Shown in pieces: positions 5,648-34,479 of a DNA stretch of 64,000 nt (its first letter is position 1; each line of letters opens with the position of its first letter). Where the stretch lies: assembly GCF_022565475.1 (NCBI RefSeq), contig NZ_JAIUMR010000002.1, forward strand, positions 186,001-250,000. The letters run 5' to 3'. Source of the DNA: Aliidiomarina sp. Its GTDB lineage: Bacteria; Pseudomonadota; Gammaproteobacteria; Enterobacterales; Alteromonadaceae. The position numbers were made by a program, and so were the translations under genes. Below the pieces are notes generated by a model. That model was given only the letters and a program-made list of their open reading frames with translations, had not been told where the DNA came from and made no database searches.

Positions 5648-5703
5648 GGCTCGGAGCCGAAATGCCTTTTCGGCTCCGAGCCACAATTCTAACCCGCTGA
5701 TTC
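5648..5703 (+). repeat. dispersed palindromic repeat, two cores (cluster 4)
   Basis: Core GGCTCGGAGCC at 5648-5658 and GGCTCCGAGCC at 5672-5682, 24 bp apart, followed by the tail ACAATTCTAACCCGCTGATT. It lies between divergent genes. Confidence 0.85.
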
Positions 5704-5770
5704 GTATATGGTTGTGAAATCTCTTGTTGCGATTTATGGTTAGGGCACTGAGATTTAGAAGGATAAATAG

Positions 5771-6265
5771 ATGTTGCATAGCTACGATATTGGTCTGTCA
5801 TTACACTTTTTTATGGCCTTCATGATAGGGGGGCTTTGTTTTGTGCCGTTGTGGATTTCGCTGGGTGTGAAGCGAAAAATCGATATGAATGTCGCGATTA
5901 GCCTCGCGATTGGTTCGGTGGTTGCGGTGTGGTTGCTGTCCTATTCGGTATATGGAACGAACGAGGTGCGGCTTGAGGGTGACTCGCTTAGCGTACGTGC
6001 TGGGCTGCATCGGACGAACGTGGCGGTTAACGATATTATTGCTGTTCAGCATCTAAGTCGAGACGCGCTACATGCTTCAGAGTTTCGACCGGGTCGGCGT
6101 GTGGGTGGCACTGGTTTTGGGCAGTATCAAGCGGGCTGGTTTCGCTTGGAAAGCGGTCAGCGAGGCTTTGTTTTGTATGCTGAGCGCCCTCAGGAATTCA
6201 CCGTGATTGAAACCGTCGCCTACCCGATCGTTTTGGGTGGTCGGGTGAATGTTCCTGGACTGTAA
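5771..6265 (+). CDS. small membrane protein with PH-like C-terminal domain
   Basis: A 164-residue protein with two N-terminal hydrophobic segments (about residues 8-32 and 40-62), then a beta-rich domain from residue 64. The stretch [32 protein letters not shown] has the look of a bacterial pleckstrin-homology domain: a strand pair followed by a V..NDI..V motif. Such proteins sit in the inner membrane and are poorly characterised. AGAAGGAT is the ribosome site. The yedK-like gene follows after 17 bp, so the two are probably one transcript. The PH-like call is by pattern and could be wrong. Confidence 0.6.
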
Positions 6266-6282
6266 ATCAAGAGGTTCAAGCT

Positions 6283-6861
6283 ATGTGTGGACGATTGAAT
6301 GTGGTTGATGATCCCTTGTCGCGCTTGGTTTCTGAGCAACTAGGCTTGGACTTCCGGGTGACGACGAACCGTGATCTGCGACCGACGCAGGACGTGCAGG
6401 TGGTCTCGGCAGCAGGCGCTGGCATGCAGCAGCTCACCACACACTGGGGTATTCAGCCGAACTGGGCGAAACGTCTGTTGATTAATGCGCAGGCGGAGAC
6501 GGTTGCGAGTAAACCCACGTTTAAGCGTGCTTTTGCGGAGCATCGTTGTTTGGTGCCGTGCAGCGGTTGGTATGAATGGCAGGCGCAAGCTGGGCAGGCG
6601 CGCAAAACCAAGTATTTGTTTCACGAAGCGTCGGACTTGCCGCTGTATATGGCAGGTATCTTTTATCCTTCAGTTGAAGGCGCACAGCTTGTCACACTCA
6701 CCACTGCACCCACCGAGCAATGTGCGACCTACCACCACCGCATGCCTTTGTTGATCCGCCCTTCAGAAACGCAGTTTTGGCTGCACAGTCGCGCCGACGA
6801 GTTAGGGCCATTGCTTGTTGCACCAGCGGATATTGAATTGGCGGTGGAATCGGCGGGGTAA
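6283..6861 (+). CDS. yedK: SOS response-associated peptidase (YedK/HMCES family)
   Basis: A 192-residue SRAP-domain protein. Family members use the N-terminal Cys2, exposed after Met removal, to form a DNA-protein crosslink with abasic sites in single-stranded DNA. Visible key elements are MCGR at the start, INAQAET (the Asn/Glu active-site stretch, near residue 67), VPCSGWYEW (Glu near 95) and HHRMPLLI (catalytic His). Length is typical or slightly short for the bacterial family. It probably shares a transcript with the PH-like gene upstream. No LexA box is evident in the short intergenic gap. Confidence 0.92.
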   Translation: MCGRLNVVDDPLSRLVSEQLGLDFRVTTNRDLRPTQDVQVVSAAGAGMQQLTTHWGIQPNWAKRLLINAQAETVASKPTFKRAFAEHRCLVPCSGWYEWQAQAGQARKTKYLFHEASDLPLYMAGIFYPSVEGAQLVTLTTAPTEQCATYHHRMPLLIRPSETQFWLHSRADELGPLLVAPADIELAVESAG

Positions 6862-10164: not shown

Positions 10165-11469
10165 TTAGGGCTTGCGGCGTTCGATGTAGCGCTGGAACAG
10201 CGGCAGGTAGCCGTGGTGTTCGCGCACGGTGATGTCAAAGTCCGCTTGAATCAGTCCAGCGCCGGGGTGGCGTGTAACCAGCCACTCCCAGGTGACTTGA
10301 CCGGGGTTAATTAAATGCACTGGATACCACTCGAGATCATCGTCGCTGAATGGTTCACCGCTATACTGGGCAACGATGTCAGCATCGACGCCAAGGCCTA
10401 AGGTATGCGGTAGCGACACGTCATGATGGCGGGCGCCAACGCCGTTTTGGTGCACGGCAAACGCGACATGATATATCGAGCCCGGTGTCAGGGTTTTGCT
10501 ATCGAGCGGATTTGGGCTCGCCAAGCTGCGTGTTAGCGTCACCCGCCATTCGCCATCGGCATAGCCACCAGAAGAGCGAATCGCGCCACGCGCTCCATCC
10601 GGCTCCTGTAATAAGCGAAACGGCAGCACGTCACCGTCTTGCCATTCGCGTGCTGCGTCAATGGGGACCGCGACCTCTTCACTTAAATAATACCAATCAT
10701 CCTGGTTATACCCTCGAGCGAGCAACGTGTCCCACGACAGCGCATGAAAACCCACTTGCTCGGCATCGAACATATAGGCCGGCCCTTCGTCTGCAGCGTT
10801 ATCGCGATACATACCGCGACCCTCTGAATTCAAGCGATAATGCAGTACATAGCCATTATCCGCATAGCCTAACGGATGCGAGCGGTGCGCCCGCCATTGC
10901 CATAAATCCAAAAATTCACCGCGCTCTTGCATGGCGGCAATATCACGCAAAGGTCGCACCGCATCCCACGCCGCCGGCTCGGTGTAGCGTGAAACCGTGC
11001 GCGACTGTGGAATGTATTTGCGCACATCGGTGCGGCCCATCTCGGTACCTAAAATTGGGTGCGCAGCAACGTCGTCGGCAGATACCGCCGAGTCCAATGT
11101 GCGCATGCCGGGATGCACCAGCATCCAACCGCCATAACGGCTAAAGCCTTCAACGGAGCCATCGTCGAGCATCATACTAATGCGGTCTTCGTACAGCCGA
11201 TTGTCGTCTGGCCCCGATGCGCCGGATCCCATCCGCACCCAACCGCCATCGCGGTAAAGCCAGTATTGGTGATACCAACTGGGCTCGGAAATGGCCATGC
11301 GGTAATGCAGTCGAAACACCTCGTCGTCATACTCCGCTGCGACATACAGTGTTTTGAGCTGGGTCTCGGGTGCTGGCTGTACGGCAGCGACTTCAGGGTC
11401 GCCGATCTCACGAGGTGAACAGGCGGACAGGATCAAAATAAGAAGAAAAACCAGCAGGGTACGTTGCAT
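10165..11469 (-). CDS. lipoprotein with ethylbenzene-dehydrogenase-related haem-binding domain
   Basis: A 434-residue protein starting with a lipoprotein signal (lipobox LSAC, Cys near 17), so probably anchored in the periplasm. The C-terminal half (about 200-390) resembles the EB_dh domain of DMSO-reductase-family gamma subunits, which bind haem b. Matching wording is DGDVLPFRLLQEPDGARGAIRSSG, DGEWRVTLTRSL and YHVAFAVHQNGVGARHHDVSLPHTLGLG. Free-standing EB_dh proteins are usually electron carriers linked to cytochromes. No molybdoenzyme or cytochrome is adjacent, so the partner is unknown. Trp and Tyr content is high. Confidence 0.72.
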   Translation of the reverse strand: MQRTLLVFLLILILSACSPREIGDPEVAAVQPAPETQLKTLYVAAEYDDEVFRLHYRMAISEPSWYHQYWLYRDGGWVRMGSGASGPDDNRLYEDRISMMLDDGSVEGFSRYGGWMLVHPGMRTLDSAVSADDVAAHPILGTEMGRTDVRKYIPQSRTVSRYTEPAAWDAVRPLRDIAAMQERGEFLDLWQWRAHRSHPLGYADNGYVLHYRLNSEGRGMYRDNAADEGPAYMFDAEQVGFHALSWDTLLARGYNQDDWYYLSEEVAVPIDAAREWQDGDVLPFRLLQEPDGARGAIRSSGGYADGEWRVTLTRSLASPNPLDSKTLTPGSIYHVAFAVHQNGVGARHHDVSLPHTLGLGVDADIVAQYSGEPFSDDDLEWYPVHLINPGQVTWEWLVTRHPGAGLIQADFDITVREHHGYLPLFQRYIERRKP

Positions 11470-11537
11470 AGCGACAGCCTTATCTTGTTGTTGTCACAGC
11501 AGCATAGCAAAAATCGTCGCGTAAACTCCAGTGGAGC

Positions 11538-14069
11538 TTATGTGGGCAGAACGAGTTCGTGCAACGGTGCGGGCTTGGCAAAATAAAAGCCTTGTAGTAA
11601 GTCGCAGTGTTGAGCACCGAGAAATTCAACTTGTTCGGCAGTTTCTACACCCTCTGCAACAATTTGCAGATGCAATAGGTGCGCCATGGTGATCAGGCCT
11701 TGCACAATAGCAACGTCGCCTTGGTTGTCGGGCAAGTTTTGAATAAAACTACGGTCCAATTTGATTTTATTCACCGGCAAACTGCGCAGATAGCTCAAGC
11801 TTGAATAGCCCGTGCCAAAGTCGTCAATAGCAACCTGAATACCCAGCGAACGCAATTCATCCATAATGGCGATGGTTCGATCAGCGCCAAGCAGGAGCAC
11901 GCTTTCGGTCACTTCCAACTCAAGCAATTGCGGTGGTAATTGGCTCGCTTTTAAGACCGACTTCACTTCGTCGACAAAGCCGGTGCGGCGAAACTGTAGC
12001 GGGGAAATGTTGACTGCAACTCGTAACGATTGCTGATGTTGCTGATTCCAAGTCGCGATATCGAAGCAGGCTTGGCGCAAAACCCAACTGCCGATGGTAA
12101 CGATTTGTCCGGTTTTTTCCGCTAACGCAATGAATAAGCCCGGCGGTACAATGCCCCGCTCTGGGTGCCGCCAACGAATCAGAGCCTCAACTTCAACCAC
12201 CTTGTTATCTTTTGACTGCAGTAATGGTTGGTAAAACAACGTGAATTGTTCTTGCTCAATCGCTTCCATGATTTCGCGTCGTAAGTTGGCATACTCGGTC
12301 GTCAACGAGTCGTCACTCTCATCTGACCAACACCAGGTGTTCCGACCTTGGCGTTTCGCCTCATTCATTGCTGAAATTGCATGTTGCAAGGCGTCAAGGG
12401 CGCTAGTTGCTTTTGGCTTGCGCTCACAGAGTCCAATGCTGGCGCTGACATGAAGACGGTGTTCGCTGACCGCAATCGGTTGGGCGAGAACATTCAGCAG
12501 TGTCTCGGCAACATCGACGGCCTCGGCTTTGTTGTCGACGTTTGGCATCAATACCGCGAACTCATCGGCAGCGACCCGCGCGACAATACCTTGTTCGCCG
12601 AAGATGGTTTTCATTCGATGTGAGACTTCAATTAATAGTTGGTCGCCAACTTCATGGCCAAGACTCTGATTTAGCGAACTAAAGTCATCTAAATCGATGT
12701 ACATGACGACGGCTAAACCGGTCGTTGGGACTCTATTATAGCGCCACAATTCCTCTTCAAACGCCTGACGATTATACAATCCGGTTAAGTGGTCATGGTT
12801 TCTTTGTGCAGCCAGCTGTGCTTCTTGTTGGCGTTGCTGAGTGACATCCTGCTGAATCCCGATGTAATGTGTGCAAAGGCCATTGTGATCAAAAACGGGA
12901 CTAATGATCAGGTGATTCCAAAATGGCGTTCCGTCTTTGCGATAGTTTAACAAGGTGACTTCAACTTCGCGTTGGCGGCGAATGCCCTCACGCAATGCGT
13001 GTACTGCCTCTGGAGTTGTATCGGCTCCCTGCAGCATGCGACAGTTTTGACCGATAATTTCGTCAGCAGCGTAACCTGTGATTTTCAAAAAGGCGGGGTT
13101 TGCATACACAATTGGCATGTTAGTTTTGCGGGCGTCGCTCATGACAACGCCATGCGGGCTCGACTCAATACCACGATTGAGCAATCGTAAACGCTCCACT
13201 AGTTCATGTTTTTCGGTGATGTCTTGGCCAATGCCAAACACCCCAACGAGCTCACCTTCGACATAAATCGGCAAATTCGTGATTTCAAGCCAGTAAACTT
13301 TGCCACTGGCATGGTAAACCGTTATTTCGTAATGCTGAGGCTTGCCTTCTTTGGCCAACGCGAAGGAGCGATCGGCTAGCTCGCGGAACGCTTCCGTGAC
13401 AAAGGCGTTGTAGTGCTGACCTTGGACTTGTTCTACGGAAAAACCCGTGATTGCGCTGCCGGCCGGATTAATGGTCGTTAAGTAGCCGTCTAGATCCATT
13501 TCAAAAACAGCGTCCGGGTGGTGATGAAAGAGAGACTCGTAGCGCTGATCGGTACCGATGCGCAGACGCCGCTCCTGATAATGTGCAAGCGCGAGTGCGA
13601 CCATGCTTGCAGCACGGCGAAGCACACTGATTTCGACTTTGGACGGGCTTCTCGGTTCGCGATAATAGGTGGCGAAGGTGCCATAGAGTTCGTTGTCGAC
13701 TGTCACAACGGGGATAGACCAGCATGCAGCGATGTTTTCTTCACGAGCCAGATCGTAATAGCCATCCCAGTTTGGGTCGTTAAAGATATTTTCAGTGATG
13801 ACGAGCTCACGGGAAAAGGCGGCGACTCCACAGCTACCCACCTTTGGACCAATCACCAGATCCTGTAATGTTTCATTGTAGTGAGTCGAAAATTGACTTG
13901 AGGGATGCATGCTCAAGGTTTGATGGGCGGCATCGAAGTGCATAATAGAAATCAGCGCCGCAGGAATCTGCTGCTCAACCCAATCAGTAATCGCTTCAAG
14001 TAGGACGTCCAGATCGGCATGTTCGCCGATGAGCTGAAGGACCCTTTCACTACTCATATTCATAAACAC
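11538..14069 (-). CDS. GAF-PAS-LOV-GGDEF-EAL c-di-GMP phosphodiesterase, probable blue-light sensor
   Basis: An 843-residue cytoplasmic protein with no membrane segments. Order: GAF (about 15-165), PAS (about 175-288), a LOV-type PAS (about 292-412), GGDEF (about 425-580) and EAL (about 597-840). The LOV domain carries GQNCRMLQGADT with Cys343, where flavin-adduct cysteines sit, plus LLNYRKDGTPFWN and YIGIQQDVT, which line the flavin pocket. The GGDEF signature is AADEF (500-504), so cyclase activity is probably lost. The EAL domain keeps EAL (628-630), DDFGTGYSS (749-757) and AEGVET, so c-di-GMP hydrolysis is likely. The start is a GTG at 14069 with AGGA six bases before. It is divergent from a second EAL protein. 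Confidence 0.93.
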   Translation of the reverse strand: MFMNMSSERVLQLIGEHADLDVLLEAITDWVEQQIPAALISIMHFDAAHQTLSMHPSSQFSTHYNETLQDLVIGPKVGSCGVAAFSRELVITENIFNDPNWDGYYDLAREENIAACWSIPVVTVDNELYGTFATYYREPRSPSKVEISVLRRAASMVALALAHYQERRLRIGTDQRYESLFHHHPDAVFEMDLDGYLTTINPAGSAITGFSVEQVQGQHYNAFVTEAFRELADRSFALAKEGKPQHYEITVYHASGKVYWLEITNLPIYVEGELVGVFGIGQDITEKHELVERLRLLNRGIESSPHGVVMSDARKTNMPIVYANPAFLKITGYAADEIIGQNCRMLQGADTTPEAVHALREGIRRQREVEVTLLNYRKDGTPFWNHLIISPVFDHNGLCTHYIGIQQDVTQQRQQEAQLAAQRNHDHLTGLYNRQAFEEELWRYNRVPTTGLAVVMYIDLDDFSSLNQSLGHEVGDQLLIEVSHRMKTIFGEQGIVARVAADEFAVLMPNVDNKAEAVDVAETLLNVLAQPIAVSEHRLHVSASIGLCERKPKATSALDALQHAISAMNEAKRQGRNTWCWSDESDDSLTTEYANLRREIMEAIEQEQFTLFYQPLLQSKDNKVVEVEALIRWRHPERGIVPPGLFIALAEKTGQIVTIGSWVLRQACFDIATWNQQHQQSLRVAVNISPLQFRRTGFVDEVKSVLKASQLPPQLLELEVTESVLLLGADRTIAIMDELRSLGIQVAIDDFGTGYSSLSYLRSLPVNKIKLDRSFIQNLPDNQGDVAIVQGLITMAHLLHLQIVAEGVETAEQVEFLGAQHCDLLQGFYFAKPAPLHELVLPT

Positions 14070-14296
14070 TTGATTTCCTGCGCAGCGATTCGACTACTAG
14101 GTATAGCCGAAAACTAAGAAAATACGAGCTTTTTCGTGCGTTCGGATAAAAAAATCATGGTCTCTGATCAACACCGTAAAATGTGTATTGCAGTTACTCA
14201 TAGTGATCCTTTTCTTTGGTTTGTCCATACTCCTCAAAGATAACAAGTCGACCGAACTTGTCGAATTCGATCCATCGGCCTACAGGAACGTACCGA

Positions 14297-16795
14297 TTGA
14301 CCTACTTACGCTTTGTCTCAGATCACCATGACCTCACCACTGCTTACGTTGGTGAACACCTTTTTAGTTTAGTTCTACTTTCAGTGGCGCTCGCCACTCT
14401 CGCCTCATACGTGAGTTTGTTGCATACCAAACTGATGCGTTCGGCGACGAGCCCTGCGCGTCGGCAGCTTTGGCATTTAAATGGTGCGGTAGCGATGGGC
14501 GCCGGCGTGTGGGCGATGCACTTTATTGGTATGGTCAGTTTCCGCATCGATGTCCCGGTACTTTATTCACCGGTGATCACCGCAGTTTCCGTATTGCCGG
14601 CCATTTTTGCCGCCTGGATTACCTTGTGGGTGCTACATAATGCGCAAGACCGTTGGTCAGCGATTGTGCTAGGCGGTGTCATGATGGGGGCTGGTATTGG
14701 CGTCATGCATTACACGGGCATGGCTGCTATTCGCACCCATGCTGAGATGCTTTATTTACCCGGAATGTTTGTACTTTCAGTTGTAGTGGCGGTGGTTTTG
14801 GCCATTGCTGCCTTGGGTGCTCGAAGAATCTTGCGCCCTTATATCGCGAAAGCCACGACGCGGATTGTTGTGAGTGCTGTCATCATGGGGTGTGCGATTT
14901 CGAGCATGCATTATACAGCGATGCACGCGACCGTCTTTCTTCCCGCTTCGGCAGGCGCGACATCTGTTGTCGCGGGTGCCGACAGTAATCTCATTGTCAT
15001 GACCACATTAATTGTTGCGGTCTTTATTGTTGTTTTAAGTACGGTGGTGGTTGTTTTGATGAACCGCCAACAACGTCTCTCCATGCAAGCTCAGTCTCGA
15101 GGCGCGCAAGTAAAAGCCTTAACCGAGCGCCTACAGTCAGTGGCTGAACGTATTCCTGGCATGGTCTATCAGTTGCATCGTGATCAATCTGGATTTATGT
15201 CCTTTCGCTATTTGAGTGATGCGGTTCAGGAGCTTTTCGATGTCTCAGTCAATGAAGCGATTGAAGATGCGCGTCGCGTTCTCAGTAAAGTCCCGACGCG
15301 AGAACGAGAACTTATTTTCGCCAGTTTAAAAGTAAGTGCGGAAAACTTAACTCCGTGGAACTATGAGTTTCCTGTGGAAAGGTCATCGGGACAAATCCGT
15401 TGGCTGTCCGCTACTTCGATACCTCAACGTGAGGACGATGGCGGCGTCAGCTGGAGTGGATTTATTAGTGACGTCACTGATAAGCGCAAAGCCGATGAAA
15501 CCATTAAGGAGCTAGCTTTTTCGGACACGCTCACGGGGCTACCAAACCGTCGCAGTTTGCTTGACGAACTGGCAACGCGTATCGAGAAATTAGAGCGCCG
15601 TAGTGCTCCACTTGTCGTCATGATTGTAAATTTGGATAACTTTAAACGTGTGAATGACGTGCATGGACAAAAGCAAGGTGATGCGGTGCTCCAAGAAGCG
15701 ACGAAACGGATGCAAGAGGTCTTATCTGAGCGTGCGTTTTTGGCTCGAGTGACGGCGGATGAGTTTGTTATTGTTACCGAATTTACCGATGCCGATCAGG
15801 CTCGCCTGGCTTGTGAGCAGAAATCCTCGGCATTGCTTCGGGCGTTGCGAGCACCTTTTAATTTGCCGAGTTTGCGTCATCAATTTACCGCTAGTATCGG
15901 CATCGTTATGACCGATAATAGTTGGTTGGGCGCGGAAGAATTGTTGCGTCGAGCTGATTTAGCGGCCAGTAATGTGAAAAGTGTGGGTGGCGACCATTTT
16001 GCTTATTATCACCCGAGTATTGAGAAGGAAATTAGCGCTCGGTTCGCCCTCGAAAACGATCTACGGGCTGCGGTGGACACGGACCAACTTGTCTTATTCT
16101 ATCAACTCCAAGCCGATGAACGCGGTCAATTCATTGGCGCCGAGGCGTTGTTGCGTTGGCACCATCCGTCTCGAGGCATCGTGTCGCCTGCGGAATTTAT
16201 TCCGTTGGCTGAGGAAAGTGGCCTGATTGTTCCGATTGGTGCGCAAGTGTTACGTCAAGCTTGCCAGCAACTGGCGCTTTGGCAAAAAAATGAAGCGACA
16301 CAACATTTACAAATGAGTGTGAACGTGAGTGCGAAGCAGTTCTACCAGTTGAACTTTGTTGACGTGGTCTTGAGTGAAGTGCAGGCCGCAGGTATCCGGC
16401 CGGAAGGGTTGAAGCTTGAGTTGACGGAAAGTCTGGTGTTAGAAGATATGGATTTAGTGCTATCGAGCATGCATCGACTGAAGCGGGAAGGTATCTGCTT
16501 CAGTATGGACGATTTTGGGACCGGCTATTCAGCACTGTCGTATCTGTCGCAGTTGCCGTTTGACGAGGTAAAAATCGACCAAGCCTTTATTCGCCGTGCA
16601 AGTATGGCCGAACATGAACGCGACTGGACGATTGTTGTGGCGATAATTCACATCGCCCAAGACCTCGGTATGGAAGTGATCGCCGAGGGCGTGGAAACCA
16701 AAGTGCAACAAGAGCGTCTCGCTGCCAGCGGTTGTTTGCGCTACCAAGGCTACTATTTTAGCCGGCCAATGCCGGTCGACGAGCTACCGCTTTAG
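14297..16795 (+). CDS. MHYT-PAS-GGDEF-EAL membrane c-di-GMP phosphodiesterase
   Basis: About 832 residues. The N-terminal 255 residues form a seven-helix MHYT sensor with the repeated motif at MHFIGM (about 74), MHYTGM (137) and MHYTAM (204); such domains are proposed to bind copper and sense a diatomic gas. A PAS-like region (283-395) follows, then GGDEF and EAL. The GGDEF signature reads TADEF (486-490) and is probably not a cyclase. EAL (616-618), NVS, ELTES, DDFGTGYS (738-745) and AEGVET are intact. I chose the TTG at 14297 because AGGAA lies 9 bases upstream and the membrane domain follows directly; the frame extends to a TTG at 14216 without a ribosome site. Its end overlaps the convergent chaC-like gene by 12 bp. 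Confidence 0.9.
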   Translation: MTYLRFVSDHHDLTTAYVGEHLFSLVLLSVALATLASYVSLLHTKLMRSATSPARRQLWHLNGAVAMGAGVWAMHFIGMVSFRIDVPVLYSPVITAVSVLPAIFAAWITLWVLHNAQDRWSAIVLGGVMMGAGIGVMHYTGMAAIRTHAEMLYLPGMFVLSVVVAVVLAIAALGARRILRPYIAKATTRIVVSAVIMGCAISSMHYTAMHATVFLPASAGATSVVAGADSNLIVMTTLIVAVFIVVLSTVVVVLMNRQQRLSMQAQSRGAQVKALTERLQSVAERIPGMVYQLHRDQSGFMSFRYLSDAVQELFDVSVNEAIEDARRVLSKVPTRERELIFASLKVSAENLTPWNYEFPVERSSGQIRWLSATSIPQREDDGGVSWSGFISDVTDKRKADETIKELAFSDTLTGLPNRRSLLDELATRIEKLERRSAPLVVMIVNLDNFKRVNDVHGQKQGDAVLQEATKRMQEVLSERAFLARVTADEFVIVTEFTDADQARLACEQKSSALLRALRAPFNLPSLRHQFTASIGIVMTDNSWLGAEELLRRADLAASNVKSVGGDHFAYYHPSIEKEISARFALENDLRAAVDTDQLVLFYQLQADERGQFIGAEALLRWHHPSRGIVSPAEFIPLAEESGLIVPIGAQVLRQACQQLALWQKNEATQHLQMSVNVSAKQFYQLNFVDVVLSEVQAAGIRPEGLKLELTESLVLEDMDLVLSSMHRLKREGICFSMDDFGTGYSALSYLSQLPFDEVKIDQAFIRRASMAEHERDWTIVVAIIHIAQDLGMEVIAEGVETKVQQERLAASGCLRYQGYYFSRPMPVDELPL

Positions 16796-25019: not shown

Positions 25020-27024
25020 ACTGGAGATTTCATTGGCAGAGGTATTAGCTGCGTGGCAAGAACAAGGCTGGCTCCGCCCGCTCGACCGCAGCTTGGCCAT
25101 GATGTTACTGCGCCAAGGTGCGAGTGATTTTGAAGCCTTGATGGCCGCCTTGGTTTCGCACCAAATCGGGCGCGGGCACACCTGTTTGTCATTGGCCGAG
25201 CTAGCCACCGACCCACAGCGTACGCTCGACATTCCTCCAGCACAGTGGGACGCCCGAAATGCTTATTTAATGCACAGCTCAACTGTAATGGAAAACTTAT
25301 TAAAACCAACCGAGTTGTTATGTCAGGTACTTGGTGAAAATGACCTTAAACTGTTATCAACGCGTTGGCTCGAGCAAGCTCGCCAGGGGCAAACCTGTGC
25401 TTGGCAACCTGAACAAAAAACCACAGGGCTGCACCCACTGGTGTATGACGAACACACGCAGCTGCTCTTTTTACGCCGCTATTGGTCGTACGAACAACGC
25501 ATTAATCATTGGCTCTATGAGCGTATGCAGCGGTCAGCCGATCAAGTCGATGCAGCAACGATAAAGGCAATCGTCGAGCGACTGATTCCCGATGTGACTG
25601 AGCACCCAAGTTGGCAGCGGATAGCCTGTGCGAATGCCGCACAACAAAGTTTTAGTGTGATTACCGGTGGACCAGGAACTGGCAAAACTTATACCGTGCT
25701 GCGTGTTTTGGCGACTTTGTCTGAATTGCACCGTGTCACCGCACCGGAACGAACCCTGCGGATTGCGCTTGCAGCGCCAACCGGAAAAGCTGCAGCGCGC
25801 ATGCAAGAATCAATAAGTCAGTCGTTGCAAGACACCCAATCTGACGAATTTAATCAGCTGCAAACAATCTTGCCGGCAAAAGCATCGACCTTACATCGCT
25901 TGCTCGGCTCGCAGCGCAATAGCCGCTATTTCCGTCATCATCGAGGTATGCCGCTACCTTACGATGTGGTGGTCATTGACGAAGCGTCGATGATCGACAC
26001 CGAAATGTTCGATGCGTTGTTAGATGCCTTAGCCCCGAGTACACGCTTAATTCTCCTTGGTGACAAAGACCAGCTTGCGCCAGTTGAAGCGGGGTCGATA
26101 CTCGCCGCGCTCTGCGAGGGTGCCGAGCAGGGTGGTTACAGCGCTGCCCACTGGCAATGGTTACAAGCGGCCAGTGGCGAACCGCTGCCAGCAGAAACAC
26201 AAACGGCGGGCTCGCAGACACGCTTAGATCATGTCGTGATGTTGCGTAAATCCATGCGCTTTAGCGGCGCGATTGCGGATTTAGCAATGGCCGTTAATGC
26301 CTGTGATGTGGAGGCTGCGAATGCCGTGTTAGCGGCTCATGCGGCCATGCCGTCTGCTCCCGTGCACGTGGTGGAAACTCGGCAGCCACAGAATGCAGCG
26401 GTTGCAGCAAACTGGCTCTCGCCGCAACTGCTGAGTGGCTACGACAACTTTATAAAAGTGTGTGGCGAAACTCCGTCACCAGAGGAAACCGATACGTGGG
26501 CGTTGCGCGTGCTGTCGGCGTACGGTGAGTTCCAATTTCTCACTGCTTTGCGGGCGGGACCCTATGGCCAAAAAGCCGTAAACACAGCGGTGGCACGACA
26601 CTTTGGCCAAACGCCAGAGCACTGGTATCACGGCCGACCGGTCATGGTGACGGCCAATGATTACAGTTTGAATTTAAATAATGGCGATATTGGTATCGCT
26701 TTAACCCATCCCGAAAGCGGCCTATTAAAAGTCGTATTTCCCGGGCAAGAGCCCGGCACGGTGCGATGGGTATTACCAAGCCGTTTGTCGCAAGTGGAGA
26801 CCACCTATGCCATGACCGTGCATAAATCGCAGGGCTCTGAATTTGCTCATGCGGTACTGATACTGCCGGACCGTAGCGCGCCTGTGCTGACCAAAGAGCT
26901 AATTTACACCGGCATCACTCGCGCCAAACAACAATTGACGTTAGTGATACCCAATGAGCGCGTCTGGAACCAAGCGATCACCCAGCGAATTGAAAGGTTA
27001 GGCGGGTTGTTTACTGCGGTATAG
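25012..27024 (+). CDS. recD: exodeoxyribonuclease V subunit alpha (RecD)
   Basis: A 670-residue SF1B 5'-3' helicase of RecBCD. Walker A is GGPGTGKTYTVLRVLA (near 216-231), motif II is VVIDEASMIDTEMFDALL, GDKDQLAPVEAGSIL follows, and MTVHKSQGSEFAHAVLILP with YTGITRAKQQL closes the helicase core. The ATG at 25012, with GGAAG upstream inside recB, gives the family N-terminus (MTKLEISLAEVLAAWQEQGWLRPLDR); an earlier in-frame start would lie deep within recB. The 3' end overlaps the convergent cyclase gene by 27 bp. Confidence 0.96.
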   Translation: MTKLEISLAEVLAAWQEQGWLRPLDRSLAMMLLRQGASDFEALMAALVSHQIGRGHTCLSLAELATDPQRTLDIPPAQWDARNAYLMHSSTVMENLLKPTELLCQVLGENDLKLLSTRWLEQARQGQTCAWQPEQKTTGLHPLVYDEHTQLLFLRRYWSYEQRINHWLYERMQRSADQVDAATIKAIVERLIPDVTEHPSWQRIACANAAQQSFSVITGGPGTGKTYTVLRVLATLSELHRVTAPERTLRIALAAPTGKAAARMQESISQSLQDTQSDEFNQLQTILPAKASTLHRLLGSQRNSRYFRHHRGMPLPYDVVVIDEASMIDTEMFDALLDALAPSTRLILLGDKDQLAPVEAGSILAALCEGAEQGGYSAAHWQWLQAASGEPLPAETQTAGSQTRLDHVVMLRKSMRFSGAIADLAMAVNACDVEAANAVLAAHAAMPSAPVHVVETRQPQNAAVAANWLSPQLLSGYDNFIKVCGETPSPEETDTWALRVLSAYGEFQFLTALRAGPYGQKAVNTAVARHFGQTPEHWYHGRPVMVTANDYSLNLNNGDIGIALTHPESGLLKVVFPGQEPGTVRWVLPSRLSQVETTYAMTVHKSQGSEFAHAVLILPDRSAPVLTKELIYTGITRAKQQLTLVIPNERVWNQAITQRIERLGGLFTAV

Positions 27025-28668
27025 CGCTTGATCGGCAGTTCGGTAAAGGGTTGCGTAATTAGCGTCACTTGCAGATCGAGTATGCGCATATCCAATTGCT
27101 GCGTCGATTGTGAGTTCCAAGCCCCGATGGTTGACCGGCGCAGTAAACGATTCATTTAGTCGTTGTGAGAGTATAGCGATTGCGGCTTTTGCGTCCTCAT
27201 CGTGAATGAGAATGGCGTATTCGTCGCCGCCCAAACGACTGATATGGTCATGGTCGCGCACCGCTTGTTTAATTCTCTGAGCGACCGTTTGTAGCAAAAT
27301 GTCACCCACATCGTGACCATGTGTATCGTTCACAGCTTTAAATTTATTTAAATCTAATAAAATCAAACCGATTTCGCCATGGTTCTTAGCCCTGATGTGC
27401 TGAAAAGCTGCGTCTAAACCGCGTCGATTCAGCACCCCGGTTAACGGATCTTGCTGTGAAGCACTGACGGCAAGCTGATGTTTTTGCTGCAAGGTTTGAA
27501 TTCGATGTGCGAGAGCAAGTGAAAAGATTATACATTCGAAAGCGACCGCGGCCGGAAAGATATATGTGTTTACATCATGGGGGTCAATGATACCTAACGT
27601 GCGCGCCACCATAATCAGCGCCGCTAAGAAAACAACACCATGACCAATTAAAAAATACAGCGCGGTTCGGTTCCCTTGCATGACGCGAGTGACTGCCACC
27701 ATAACTAGAATGATAATTCCAATGAGGGCAAATGGTGCGAAGAGTTTGGTCGACAGCCATTCAATGCGGAGTTGGTGACTCACCCAAGTTAAAAAACATA
27801 TTGCTGCTAACGCGCTAACCAGTAGGTGAAGGCGCGGTGTATGTTTTTTGGTATGGAGCAGGTTCTGCGAGAACAAGGCAACCGCAAAGCCCCAGAGTGC
27901 ACCTGTACTTGTTCGATCAGCCCAGCGTGGCTGAACGCCTTCATGGAATAAATACTGAACGCCAAAACTCGTGCCATCGAGTAACAAAAATAGAACTGCA
28001 CTGGTGCTAAATACGTACCAGGCGTACATAGGTTCACGTAGATTGACAAGTAGTACAAAATTATAAAGTAGTAAGCCAATGACGATGCCGAAAATGATCC
28101 CGAAGCCTAAATGCTCGGTCAAATTATTATGCTCAAGATGTTCGACGGTAGTGAGCTGTAATGGGAAAACACTACCGACAGGATCGGTGTATTGCAGATA
28201 AATTACAGTGGGTTGTGTGTCGCTTAAATCGAGGCGAATATTTGGATGACGATAGTTGATGTCGCGTCCTTCTCGGTAAGAACTTTGCTTGCCAGAGCGG
28301 ACTATACGAAGGTCGTCGGATGTTTGCACAAATATGTTCAAGTGGCGCTGGGAAATGGCGCGCGAAACTAAAACCCATTCTCCCGGCGCGGAGTCCTGCG
28401 CAAGCAGTTCGATGCGTAGCCACGTCGATTGTGTCGTTCCAGCAACGGCCGCAACACCCAACGCCGGCCGAAACGCGCCATTCTCATAAGCTGCAAGAAT
28501 GTCCGCAAACGCCATATTCGGGTCGGCATCCGTCAGTATCCATGCATGATCATTCAGGGGTTGCTCAACATTGTTGCTTACCCAATAGGGTGATTGCTGC
28601 GCATTCGCAGAGCCACTGCTGAGTGTGAGAAATAGCAGAAATCCGAGCAAACAAAGCCGAAATATCAT
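26998..28668 (-). CDS. 7TMR-DISM diguanylate cyclase
   Basis: About 556 residues. A signal peptide (ending SANAQQ) leads to a periplasmic 7TMR-DISM extracellular sensor domain (about 35-170, with WLRIELLAQDSAPGEWVLVS and VIYLQYTDP), then seven membrane helices (about 185-390) and a GGDEF domain. GGDEY (near 480) is intact and preceded by RDHD five residues upstream, a feedback I-site, so active c-di-GMP synthesis is likely. The start is ambiguous: the ATG at 28668 has AAAGGA 11 bases upstream; 28680 and 28692, both overlapping pnuC, are alternatives. It is the last gene of a tightly packed minus-strand group. Confidence 0.88.
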   Translation of the reverse strand: MIFRLCLLGFLLFLTLSSGSANAQQSPYWVSNNVEQPLNDHAWILTDADPNMAFADILAAYENGAFRPALGVAAVAGTTQSTWLRIELLAQDSAPGEWVLVSRAISQRHLNIFVQTSDDLRIVRSGKQSSYREGRDINYRHPNIRLDLSDTQPTVIYLQYTDPVGSVFPLQLTTVEHLEHNNLTEHLGFGIIFGIVIGLLLYNFVLLVNLREPMYAWYVFSTSAVLFLLLDGTSFGVQYLFHEGVQPRWADRTSTGALWGFAVALFSQNLLHTKKHTPRLHLLVSALAAICFLTWVSHQLRIEWLSTKLFAPFALIGIIILVMVAVTRVMQGNRTALYFLIGHGVVFLAALIMVARTLGIIDPHDVNTYIFPAAVAFECIIFSLALAHRIQTLQQKHQLAVSASQQDPLTGVLNRRGLDAAFQHIRAKNHGEIGLILLDLNKFKAVNDTHGHDVGDILLQTVAQRIKQAVRDHDHISRLGGDEYAILIHDEDAKAAIAILSQRLNESFTAPVNHRGLELTIDAAIGYAHTRSASDANYATLYRTADQALYRSKQPA

Positions 28669-28672
28669 CTGG

Positions 28673-29422
28673 TTATGCATCCTTTGCTTCATCACATGTT
28701 TGTGATTGCCACCATCCATACAAGGCTAAAAAGGCATTCACTTGATACACCATGGTTTGAATCGCGAATATCACATTGTTATTGGCGAGGTTCACCGCAA
28801 GCCAAACGAAGTTAACAATAATCCACAGTAGCCAACTCATCGAATAGCGCAAGATCATGGTGGTTTGCGCGGTCACCCCGAGTACAAATGCAAGCACATT
28901 AATTTGATACCAGGAGATATCGAGGCCGAGCAGGGAAAGTGCCGTATCGGTGTCAGCGCCAATAAAACTGTACTGCTGCAACTGCGCGTTTAACCACGGA
29001 AAAATTGCCAAGCCAATGGCGATAAATACCCCGGTGATCAGCCATACGGAAAGACCTGCTTGGCGCGGTTGCATATCACCATTGGCGTCTTGGTTGCGTC
29101 GCCAGTCGAATAAAGCGTACAGGTGGGTGAGAAAATAAAACAGCGGCGCAAGCATAAGGCCGGTGGCACCGCTGCGCCCTTGCACCATACTTTCACCTAA
29201 GTTCGCGACCATGCCGAGGCCGTTGCCAGCTTTGTTTTTGCGAAACGCGAGGGCAAGCACACAGACTAAGCCAATGATGGCAACCATGAGCATGATAACG
29301 TCAAAAGTGCTGCGTTCGGTACTCAGCCAAAAACCAGCACTGAGCGCAATGACACCACAACTAAACCAGATCACCGCCCAAGGGCGCGCCCATTCGTTAA
29401 GTAACTTGTCGAGCAGCTGCAT
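28673..29422 (-). CDS. pnuC: PnuC-like nicotinamide riboside/mononucleotide transporter
   Basis: A 249-residue inner-membrane protein with about seven helices. Family traits are LSLLGLDISWYQINVLAFVLGVTAQTTM, SWLLWIIVNFVWLAVNLANNN (the W..WI..N pattern) and YQVNAFLALYGWWQS. PnuC channels take up NAD precursors by facilitated diffusion. AAGGA lies seven bases before the ATG. It starts 26 bp after the semialdehyde dehydrogenase gene, so NAD precursor import may be coupled to an NAD(P)-using enzyme. The N-terminal part is longer and less conserved than in E. coli-type PnuC. The exact substrate is uncertain. Confidence 0.8.
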   Translation of the reverse strand: MQLLDKLLNEWARPWAVIWFSCGVIALSAGFWLSTERSTFDVIMLMVAIIGLVCVLALAFRKNKAGNGLGMVANLGESMVQGRSGATGLMLAPLFYFLTHLYALFDWRRNQDANGDMQPRQAGLSVWLITGVFIAIGLAIFPWLNAQLQQYSFIGADTDTALSLLGLDISWYQINVLAFVLGVTAQTTMILRYSMSWLLWIIVNFVWLAVNLANNNVIFAIQTMVYQVNAFLALYGWWQSQTCDEAKDA

Positions 29423-33786: not shown

Positions 33787-34479
33787 CTAATCGAGAATGA
33801 GCGAGCCATCAGTATAATCGAAGATAATGCGCATTTGATTCACGCCATCAATGCTCACCGTTCTGGCAATGATTCCGGCAAAACCACGGCCTTCGCGGAA
33901 GAATACGTCGTTCATAAACAGCTCGATGCCGTCTCTGTCGTGGTATCCCACTTTTGCGAAACAAACGCGATTGTTGCAGGTGAAATCTTCTAGATAGACG
34001 TCGTTTCGATGCAACTGCTCAGAGTCTCGAAATATTTCTTGGTATTTTGCTTCCACTTCATACGATTCTGAATTTCTGTCAATTTGGCGTGCATATTCGA
34101 ATAGATTATCGAAATCCCGGCTGAGCATGTAATGTTCTGCAGTCGCACTGCTCAATCCTTGTGGGGGAGATAATTTTGCAAACTCAGCTTCGATCAGATC
34201 GCTTGTACTTGCTTGCGTTGTGCTGTCGGCAGATAAGTTTGTTGAGGTCGCCTCTGGGCTTTGATCGCTGTCAGTGACTGAACTCTCCGAATTGCCCGCA
34301 AACGCACCGGCGTGTTCGTCTGAAATGTCAGCACTCTTGTTCTGCGCTTGTGTACTTGCATGTTGTGATGTCGAATCGCCGTTGATGCGTGCAGCTTGCT
34401 CTGAGTTGACAAAAACAAAATAAACGAGCGCTGCCGCAATGACAATGATTCCAATGATCAAGAGCTTCCCTGATTTCAT
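33787..34479 (-). CDS. membrane-anchored protein, unknown function
   Basis: A 230-residue protein I do not recognise. Residues 5-24 form one membrane segment. A Ser/Thr/Asp/Gln-rich, probably disordered linker runs from about 30 to 100. A compact C-terminal domain (about 105-230) contains two cysteines (FTCNNRVCFAKVGYHDRDG) that may form a disulfide, and ends in beta-rich MRIIFDYTDGSLILD. The layout suggests a periplasmic domain on a tether. AAGGA lies five bases before the ATG. Confidence 0.7.
   Translation of the reverse strand: MKSGKLLIIGIIVIAAALVYFVFVNSEQAARINGDSTSQHASTQAQNKSADISDEHAGAFAGNSESSVTDSDQSPEATSTNLSADSTTQASTSDLIEAEFAKLSPPQGLSSATAEHYMLSRDFDNLFEYARQIDRNSESYEVEAKYQEIFRDSEQLHRNDVYLEDFTCNNRVCFAKVGYHDRDGIELFMNDVFFREGRGFAGIIARTVSIDGVNQMRIIFDYTDGSLILD

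Follow-up and report, generated by a model that had tools for sequence, protein, structure and literature searches.

Gene and domain organization

The window analysed here is a 64,000-nucleotide stretch of the genome of Aliidiomarina sp. (contig NZ_JAIUMR010000002.1, positions 186,001 to 250,000), and on its minus strand lies a gene for a protein with three sensor domains followed by GGDEF and EAL domains. Coordinates are those of the window and residues are counted from the GTG start.

11538..14069, minus strand: whole gene, 843 aa, GAF-PAS-LOV-GGDEF-EAL, with a GTG start at 14069
13587..14018, minus strand: GAF domain, aa 18-161 (Pfam PF13185, GAF_2, 68.1 bits)
13188..13547, minus strand: ordinary PAS domain, aa 175-294, without the LOV motif (PAS S-box model, 81.7 bits)
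about 12837..13184, minus strand: LOV domain core, aa 296-411 (LOV models, PDB matches, pocket residues)
13041..13043, minus strand: codon of Cys343, the cysteine expected to form the flavin adduct
12786..12848, minus strand: LOV-to-GGDEF linker, 21 residues, D408 to L428
12339..12800, minus strand: degenerate GGDEF domain, aa 424-577 (Pfam, 129 bits)
12558..12572, minus strand: AADEF in place of GGDEF, with GEQG at the position of the preceding RxxD inhibitory site
11571..12278, minus strand: EAL phosphodiesterase domain, aa 598-833, catalytic motifs intact (Pfam, 257.5 bits)

An earlier note on this DNA, made from the letters alone, had placed a GAF domain and another PAS domain ahead of the LOV domain, and both were matched (by Pfam and by the PAS S-box model over residues 175-294). 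Its list of GAF, PAS, LOV and EAL domains holds, but it left out the GGDEF domain that separates LOV from EAL. The GAF domain had no PDB match by sequence at E values up to 0.001.

An AGGA sequence is seen by eye six bases upstream of the GTG codon, and in-frame ATG codons follow 2 and 4 codons downstream. The nearer of these aligns with the sole methionine near the N-terminus of a 68%-identical relative, so the residue numbering may shift by 2 to 4. Scans of positions 11300-14500 gave one promoter-like site (mean of 2.6 in shuffled sequences) and five terminator-like sites (mean 3.4, sd 1.8), neither clearly above the shuffles.

Identification of the LOV domain

The earlier note had proposed scoring the third sensor domain against LOV and ordinary PAS profiles, and the LOV models came out ahead. 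The isolated domain (aa 292-419) scored 156.2 bits (E 9e-46) with the NCBIfam model for blue-light-activated histidine kinases and 153.2 bits (E 8e-45) with that for the YtvA family, against only 69.2 bits with the PAS S-box model. Both LOV models have curated cut-offs (450/250) meant for whole-protein equivalogs, which need other domains, and the isolated domain falls below them. The first PAS domain, used as a comparison, scored 81.7 bits with the S-box model and matched none of the NCBIfam LOV models.

The motif GQNCRMLQ begins at residue 340 on the minus strand, with the codon of Cys343 exactly where it had been reported. The two further motifs named earlier, NYRKDGTPFWN (aa 375-385, nucleotides 12915-12947, minus strand) and IGIQQDVT (aa 403-410, nucleotides 12840-12863, minus strand), are likewise present, but both lie outside the interval 13030-13200 given for the domain, which covers only its first half. 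All flavin-pocket positions are filled (N342, C343, R344, Q347, R360, N375, N385 and Q406); the contact positions, with their R, Q, R, N, N, Q spacing, are presumed from phototropin and YtvA.

Comparison with known structures gave a similar picture. The LOV domain matched 162 PDB sequences at E values up to 0.001, and among the 60 best listed 34 are named LOV, blue light, phototropin, aureochrome or EL222 (hand count); the rest of those 60 go by unspecific names (histidine kinase, sensory box protein and the like). The best match was 9vf7 (125.9 bits), and third came 8c05 (111.5 bits), whose title describes a LOV-activated diguanylate cyclase. For the first PAS domain only 10 PDB matches were obtained; a sensory-box/GGDEF protein led them with 42.7 bits, and some LOV kinases appeared lower down. 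In an AlphaFold2 model the LOV domain is predicted to fold like a PAS domain, and Cys343 opens a short helix.

The cysteine could in principle have arisen by chance in an ordinary PAS domain, and Pfam does call the domain PAS_9, none of its five matches being to a separate LOV family. This reading was rejected, and we give it a negligible probability: the best two LOV models score more than 80 bits above the S-box model, and the whole pocket is present. As judged from the sequence, the presence of a LOV domain is confirmed and far from chance, and the protein almost certainly senses blue light.

The GGDEF and EAL domains

Behind the LOV domain an intact EAL domain had been claimed, and its signature and metal and catalytic residues were all found. 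E628, L630, N687, E719, E722, D749, D750, K770, E806 and Q826 do not vary in any of the 15 relatives aligned. The EAL signature of one relative, L015, reads EVL, and L041, a different ORF that is not a GGDEF-EAL protein, was left out of the motif count.

The GGDEF domain is degenerate. In the window protein and in two relatives, L005 and L010, AADEF replaces GGDEF and RxxD is absent, and the Acinetobacter terrestris protein (L018) has SGDEF, also without RxxD. Both motifs are kept in six relatives of the genus (L002, L006, L007, L014, L015 and L016). Without the second glycine, cyclase activity is expected to be lost; the RxxD inhibitory site is common and not required for catalysis. Neither the GG(D/E)EF motif of active diguanylate cyclases nor RxxD was found in the window protein. 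The degenerate domain fits a phosphodiesterase role, and from the joint loss of both motifs in the three proteins this branch looks like one of dedicated phosphodiesterases. A bifunctional enzyme, in which the GGDEF domain retains c-di-GMP synthesis and light tips the balance between the two activities, would be in line with the 129-bit Pfam match and with the six relatives that keep both motifs, but the AADEF sequence and the lost RxxD in the window protein, L005 and L010 make it highly improbable.

The 21-residue linker between LOV and GGDEF is common to all 16 proteins examined, including the LOV-less L010 and L019, which lacks the cysteine, and hence reflects a shared register, not a feature peculiar to LOV proteins. 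Short-linker LOV-diguanylate cyclases, whose linker definition we adopted (PMC10396304, excerpts), have a linker of equal length. According to the same excerpts, truncated LOV-GGDEF constructs of LOV-GGDEF-EAL proteins gave no light-regulated synthesis, and the EAL domain of such proteins is suggested as a part that may be light-regulated.

The full-length AlphaFold2 model, built on a 15-row alignment in which only three rows (the window protein, L017 and L018) have a cysteine-bearing LOV domain, has mostly well-predicted domains (mean pLDDT 87.3); given a pTM of 0.38, their arrangement was not interpreted. Its best fold matches are DosP and the PAS-GGDEF-EAL region of PA0861, with 8c05 at rank 32.

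Distribution and conservation of the LOV domain

In the genus, the LOV domain matched 18 places in 11 of 17 genomes (E 1e-18 or better); the pocket alignment took in those matches that span about 85 profile positions or more. Of the 18 places, 14 are strong matches (E 1e-30 or better; the window's own domain is one), with the cysteine retained in 13. The exception, in genome G007 (L012/L106), has a methionine encoded by ATG. This domain also has isoleucine for the conserved glutamine and is otherwise LOV-like in its pocket. The other four of the 18 places have proline at the cysteine position and are not LOV by the cysteine criterion. Across the family more widely, 12 of 59 genomes sampled gave a LOV match (E 1e-22), at 14 places, with the cysteine kept in 11.

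The conserved glutamine is absent from five of the 14 strong genus domains (L105, L106, L107, L108 and L110, with S, I, A, S and T, respectively). A Mesorhizobium loti LOV-GGDEF-EAL protein without this glutamine bears on these five: blue light lowered the activity of its LOV-GGDEF fragment relative to the dark (PMC9098866, excerpts).

With the whole protein as query (E 1e-120), matches were obtained in 11 of the 38 relatives searched, every one a member of the genus. The closest named relatives come from Aliidiomarina haloalkalitolerans (68% identity) and A. terrestris (48%), both nearly full length, among the 80 of 117 relatives that the genome-contig scan kept. Nearly full-length relatives also occur in 21 of 99 genomes of the genus Acinetobacter, at 24 places (E 1e-150). 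The eight of these that were examined (L139 and L141-L147) all keep the cysteine; the pocket arginine at R360 is kept in only one of the eight, and R344 and N375 are absent in two. In review excerpts, light sensing in Acinetobacter is described for BLUF proteins.

Domain identity was used alone, dS being saturated or not computable for dN/dS on LOV. Against the A. terrestris protein, identity is 56.7% for LOV, 56.6% for EAL, 44.1% for GAF, 41.7% for GGDEF with its linker and 38.3% for PAS, and LOV is better kept than PAS (Fisher p 0.007), GGDEF (0.017) and GAF (0.04), all uncorrected. Against A. haloalkalitolerans the EAL domain leads (76.9%), followed by PAS (72.5%) and LOV (71.1%), so that LOV does not stand out. 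The better conservation of LOV and EAL against the Acinetobacter protein is as expected if light input and hydrolytic output were the core function.

A relative without the LOV domain

One relative in the genus, L010 (L122; G002:C3), has GAF, PAS, GGDEF (AADEF) and intact EAL domains and no LOV domain. The gap in its alignment is exactly one PAS unit, with reading frame and linker length kept. Its neighbourhood differs from that of the window gene: when 11 window proteins were compared with the 18 kb around it, nine found no counterpart and one hit the gene itself; the remaining one, the MHYT protein, matched only the GGDEF-EAL gene adjoining L010, at 35%.

In midpoint-rooted trees of the GGDEF-EAL region, L010 adjoins a group formed by the window protein, the A. 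haloalkalitolerans protein and the Acinetobacter proteins. Support for this group without L010 is 96/85 in a 45-row tree and 87/85 in an Acinetobacter tree, and the LOV-bearing L008/L009 fall outside (85/47 and 81/79, respectively). The 45-row tree holds the best 45 of 60 sequences, after L001 and L017 were left out as copies along with rows below 250 bits or 380 residues; the Acinetobacter tree includes L140, a different, non-LOV Acinetobacter protein that drew the root. Another protein without LOV, L003 from the window's own genome, is placed only weakly within the wider group in the 45-row tree. Loss of LOV in L010 is the simpler reading, and a gain of LOV may be the alternative.

The existence of L010 implies that the scaffold can do without LOV, and in some species the main input may come from GAF or PAS. 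One could therefore suppose that the LOV domain of the window protein is photochemically competent but uncoupled, with GAF or PAS governing the output, much as L010 retains GAF, PAS, AADEF and an intact EAL domain without it. The position of LOV directly beside the effector, one 21-residue linker away, and its place among the two best-kept domains relative to the Acinetobacter protein argue against such uncoupling, which we consider very unlikely. Since it lacks LOV only, L010 offers a natural comparison for what LOV adds to an enzyme of the same kind.

Comparison with known systems

The closest functional parallel is SL2 of Synechococcus elongatus, a blue-light-dependent LOV-GGDEF-EAL phosphodiesterase studied in vitro (Cao et al. 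2010, as described in excerpts of PMC8846402 and cited in PMC10396304). Both proteins carry LOV and then GGDEF and EAL in one chain, with blue-light control of c-di-GMP hydrolysis predicted for the window protein; unlike SL2 as described there, the latter has GAF and ordinary PAS domains before LOV and a host without sign of phototrophy. With the LOV-activated diguanylate cyclases, or LadC proteins (MsLadC, PDB 8c05; PMC10396304, excerpts), it shares a LOV domain joined to GGDEF through a short linker of 21 residues, whereas its GGDEF domain is degenerate, an EAL domain follows, and the predicted output is hydrolysis instead of synthesis.

The best NCBIfam match of the whole protein was the DibA phosphodiesterase model NF045675 (498.4 bits), which aligned with the PAS-GGDEF-EAL region over residues 251-839; the score does not reach the cut-off of 980 bits, so the window protein is not an equivalog. 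DosP, an oxygen-sensing c-di-GMP phosphodiesterase named PdeO in the excerpts of PMC8846402, likewise combines PAS sensors with GGDEF and EAL, but its heme PAS senses oxygen, whereas the PAS domain beside GGDEF in the window protein is LOV.

RmcA of Pseudomonas aeruginosa (PA0575) is a further multi-PAS GGDEF-EAL phosphodiesterase whose last PAS domain is LOV-like; in the excerpted text of PMC8846402 this domain is tied to light, with an effect on biofilms, and to phenazine and redox effects. By analogy, the flavin-binding LOV domain of the window protein might serve mainly as a redox or redox/light sensor, with light secondary, and GAF and PAS inputs coexist with it in the same chain. The LOV-like domain of RmcA is, however, described there as lacking the cysteine. 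Thirteen of the 14 strong domains in the genus and all eight Acinetobacter-genus relatives examined retain it, which a purely redox role would not demand. We regard a mainly redox role as unlikely.

About 18% of 1390 bacterial LOV proteins carry GGDEF or GGDEF plus EAL (PMC4844311, excerpts), and with SL2 the arrangement was already known, so that the finding is ordinary in kind. No paper with both Aliidiomarina and blue light came up in our literature search, and the window protein is not described in the titles and abstract openings that it listed; published LOV surveys may well list relatives. New in detail are the relatives in Aliidiomarina and Acinetobacter, the LOV-less relative, and the relative of a red-light cyclase in the same genome (below).

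Proposed mechanism

Taking these data together, we propose, with a probability of roughly 0.78, that the gene encodes a soluble, probably dimeric, blue-light-regulated c-di-GMP phosphodiesterase, and that light is probably used to control c-di-GMP breakdown. The domain order, the pocket residues, the intact EAL motifs and the degenerate GGDEF domain were shown directly in the translation; solubility and dimerisation we infer. In the dark the LOV domain would bind flavin, and blue light would lead to an adduct between Cys343 and the flavin. The change would then pass via a predicted post-LOV helix and the linker to the degenerate GGDEF domain, which could act as a relay or as a GTP-binding regulator and alter EAL activity. 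By analogy with SL2, light would most likely raise c-di-GMP hydrolysis, while the GAF and first PAS domains would feed in further signals. The expected output would be less biofilm and more motility in the light. If this proposal is right, the window protein is a well-supported blue-light phosphodiesterase that carries two additional sensors and comes from relatives of the Idiomarina source of IsPadC, the red-light diguanylate cyclase.

The protein matches 49 places in the 2.7-Mb genome, and 47 of them cover GGDEF and/or EAL, namely the window gene itself and 46 others that could mask its effect at the level of the cell. This c-di-GMP repertoire is large for a genome of its size.

Other light-related genes and genomic context

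The earlier note had taken the host to be probably non-phototrophic, which is supported: the window's genome, 95.6% complete, gave no match to rhodopsin, BLUF or photosynthetic reaction-centre proteins. Within the genus, rhodopsin was found in one of 17 genomes (G006). The divergent neighbour of the LOV gene encodes an MHYT-PAS-GGDEF-EAL protein and is kept beside it in A. haloalkalitolerans.

In the window's genome (G000) a second GAF-LOV-GGDEF-EAL gene (L120, L121) appears to be split over two contig ends. One (C9:116-721) carries GAF and the start of LOV and the other (C7:129-1679) the rest of LOV with GGDEF and EAL, so the gene seems to have been cut by the assembly. The same genome encodes a phytochrome-GGDEF protein (L119, G000:C3:220400-223800), with a heme oxygenase ORF beside it. 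Most of the length of this protein matches PDB 5llw/5llx (794.7 bits), which we take to be IsPadC, listed as a red-light-activated cyclase from Idiomarina sp. A28L (PMC8846402, excerpts).

An apparently non-phototrophic cell might thus read the colour of light, with the LOV-EAL protein and the second LOV-GGDEF-EAL protein lowering c-di-GMP in blue light and the IsPadC relative raising it in red. We hold this idea to be possible but doubtful. The two predicted light-controlled enzymes in one genome make colour-opposed control of c-di-GMP testable in an apparent non-phototroph.

A red/blue partnership was also sought in the co-occurrence of the two kinds of gene across the genus. Strong LOV domains occur in 11 of 17 genomes and phytochrome (PHY) domains in six; the four genomes with both (G000, G001, G004 and G011; hand count) compare with about 3.9 expected, so that an association was not seen and this line of support was rejected.

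A separate observation concerns the DNA to one side of the LOV gene. From 17600 to about 38650 (recC, recB, recD and the genes that follow) the window is mostly 93-95% identical to A. haloalkalitolerans, whereas the flanks are mostly at 69-83%, with one piece on the left (5666-6287) at 92.6%. The left edge is sharp, falling between 17364 and 17600, and it looks as if about 21 kb had been exchanged recently between the two species. The LOV gene is some 3.5 kb away from this stretch, and two genes within the stretch (26998-28719 and 33787-34479) are unmatched or diverged.
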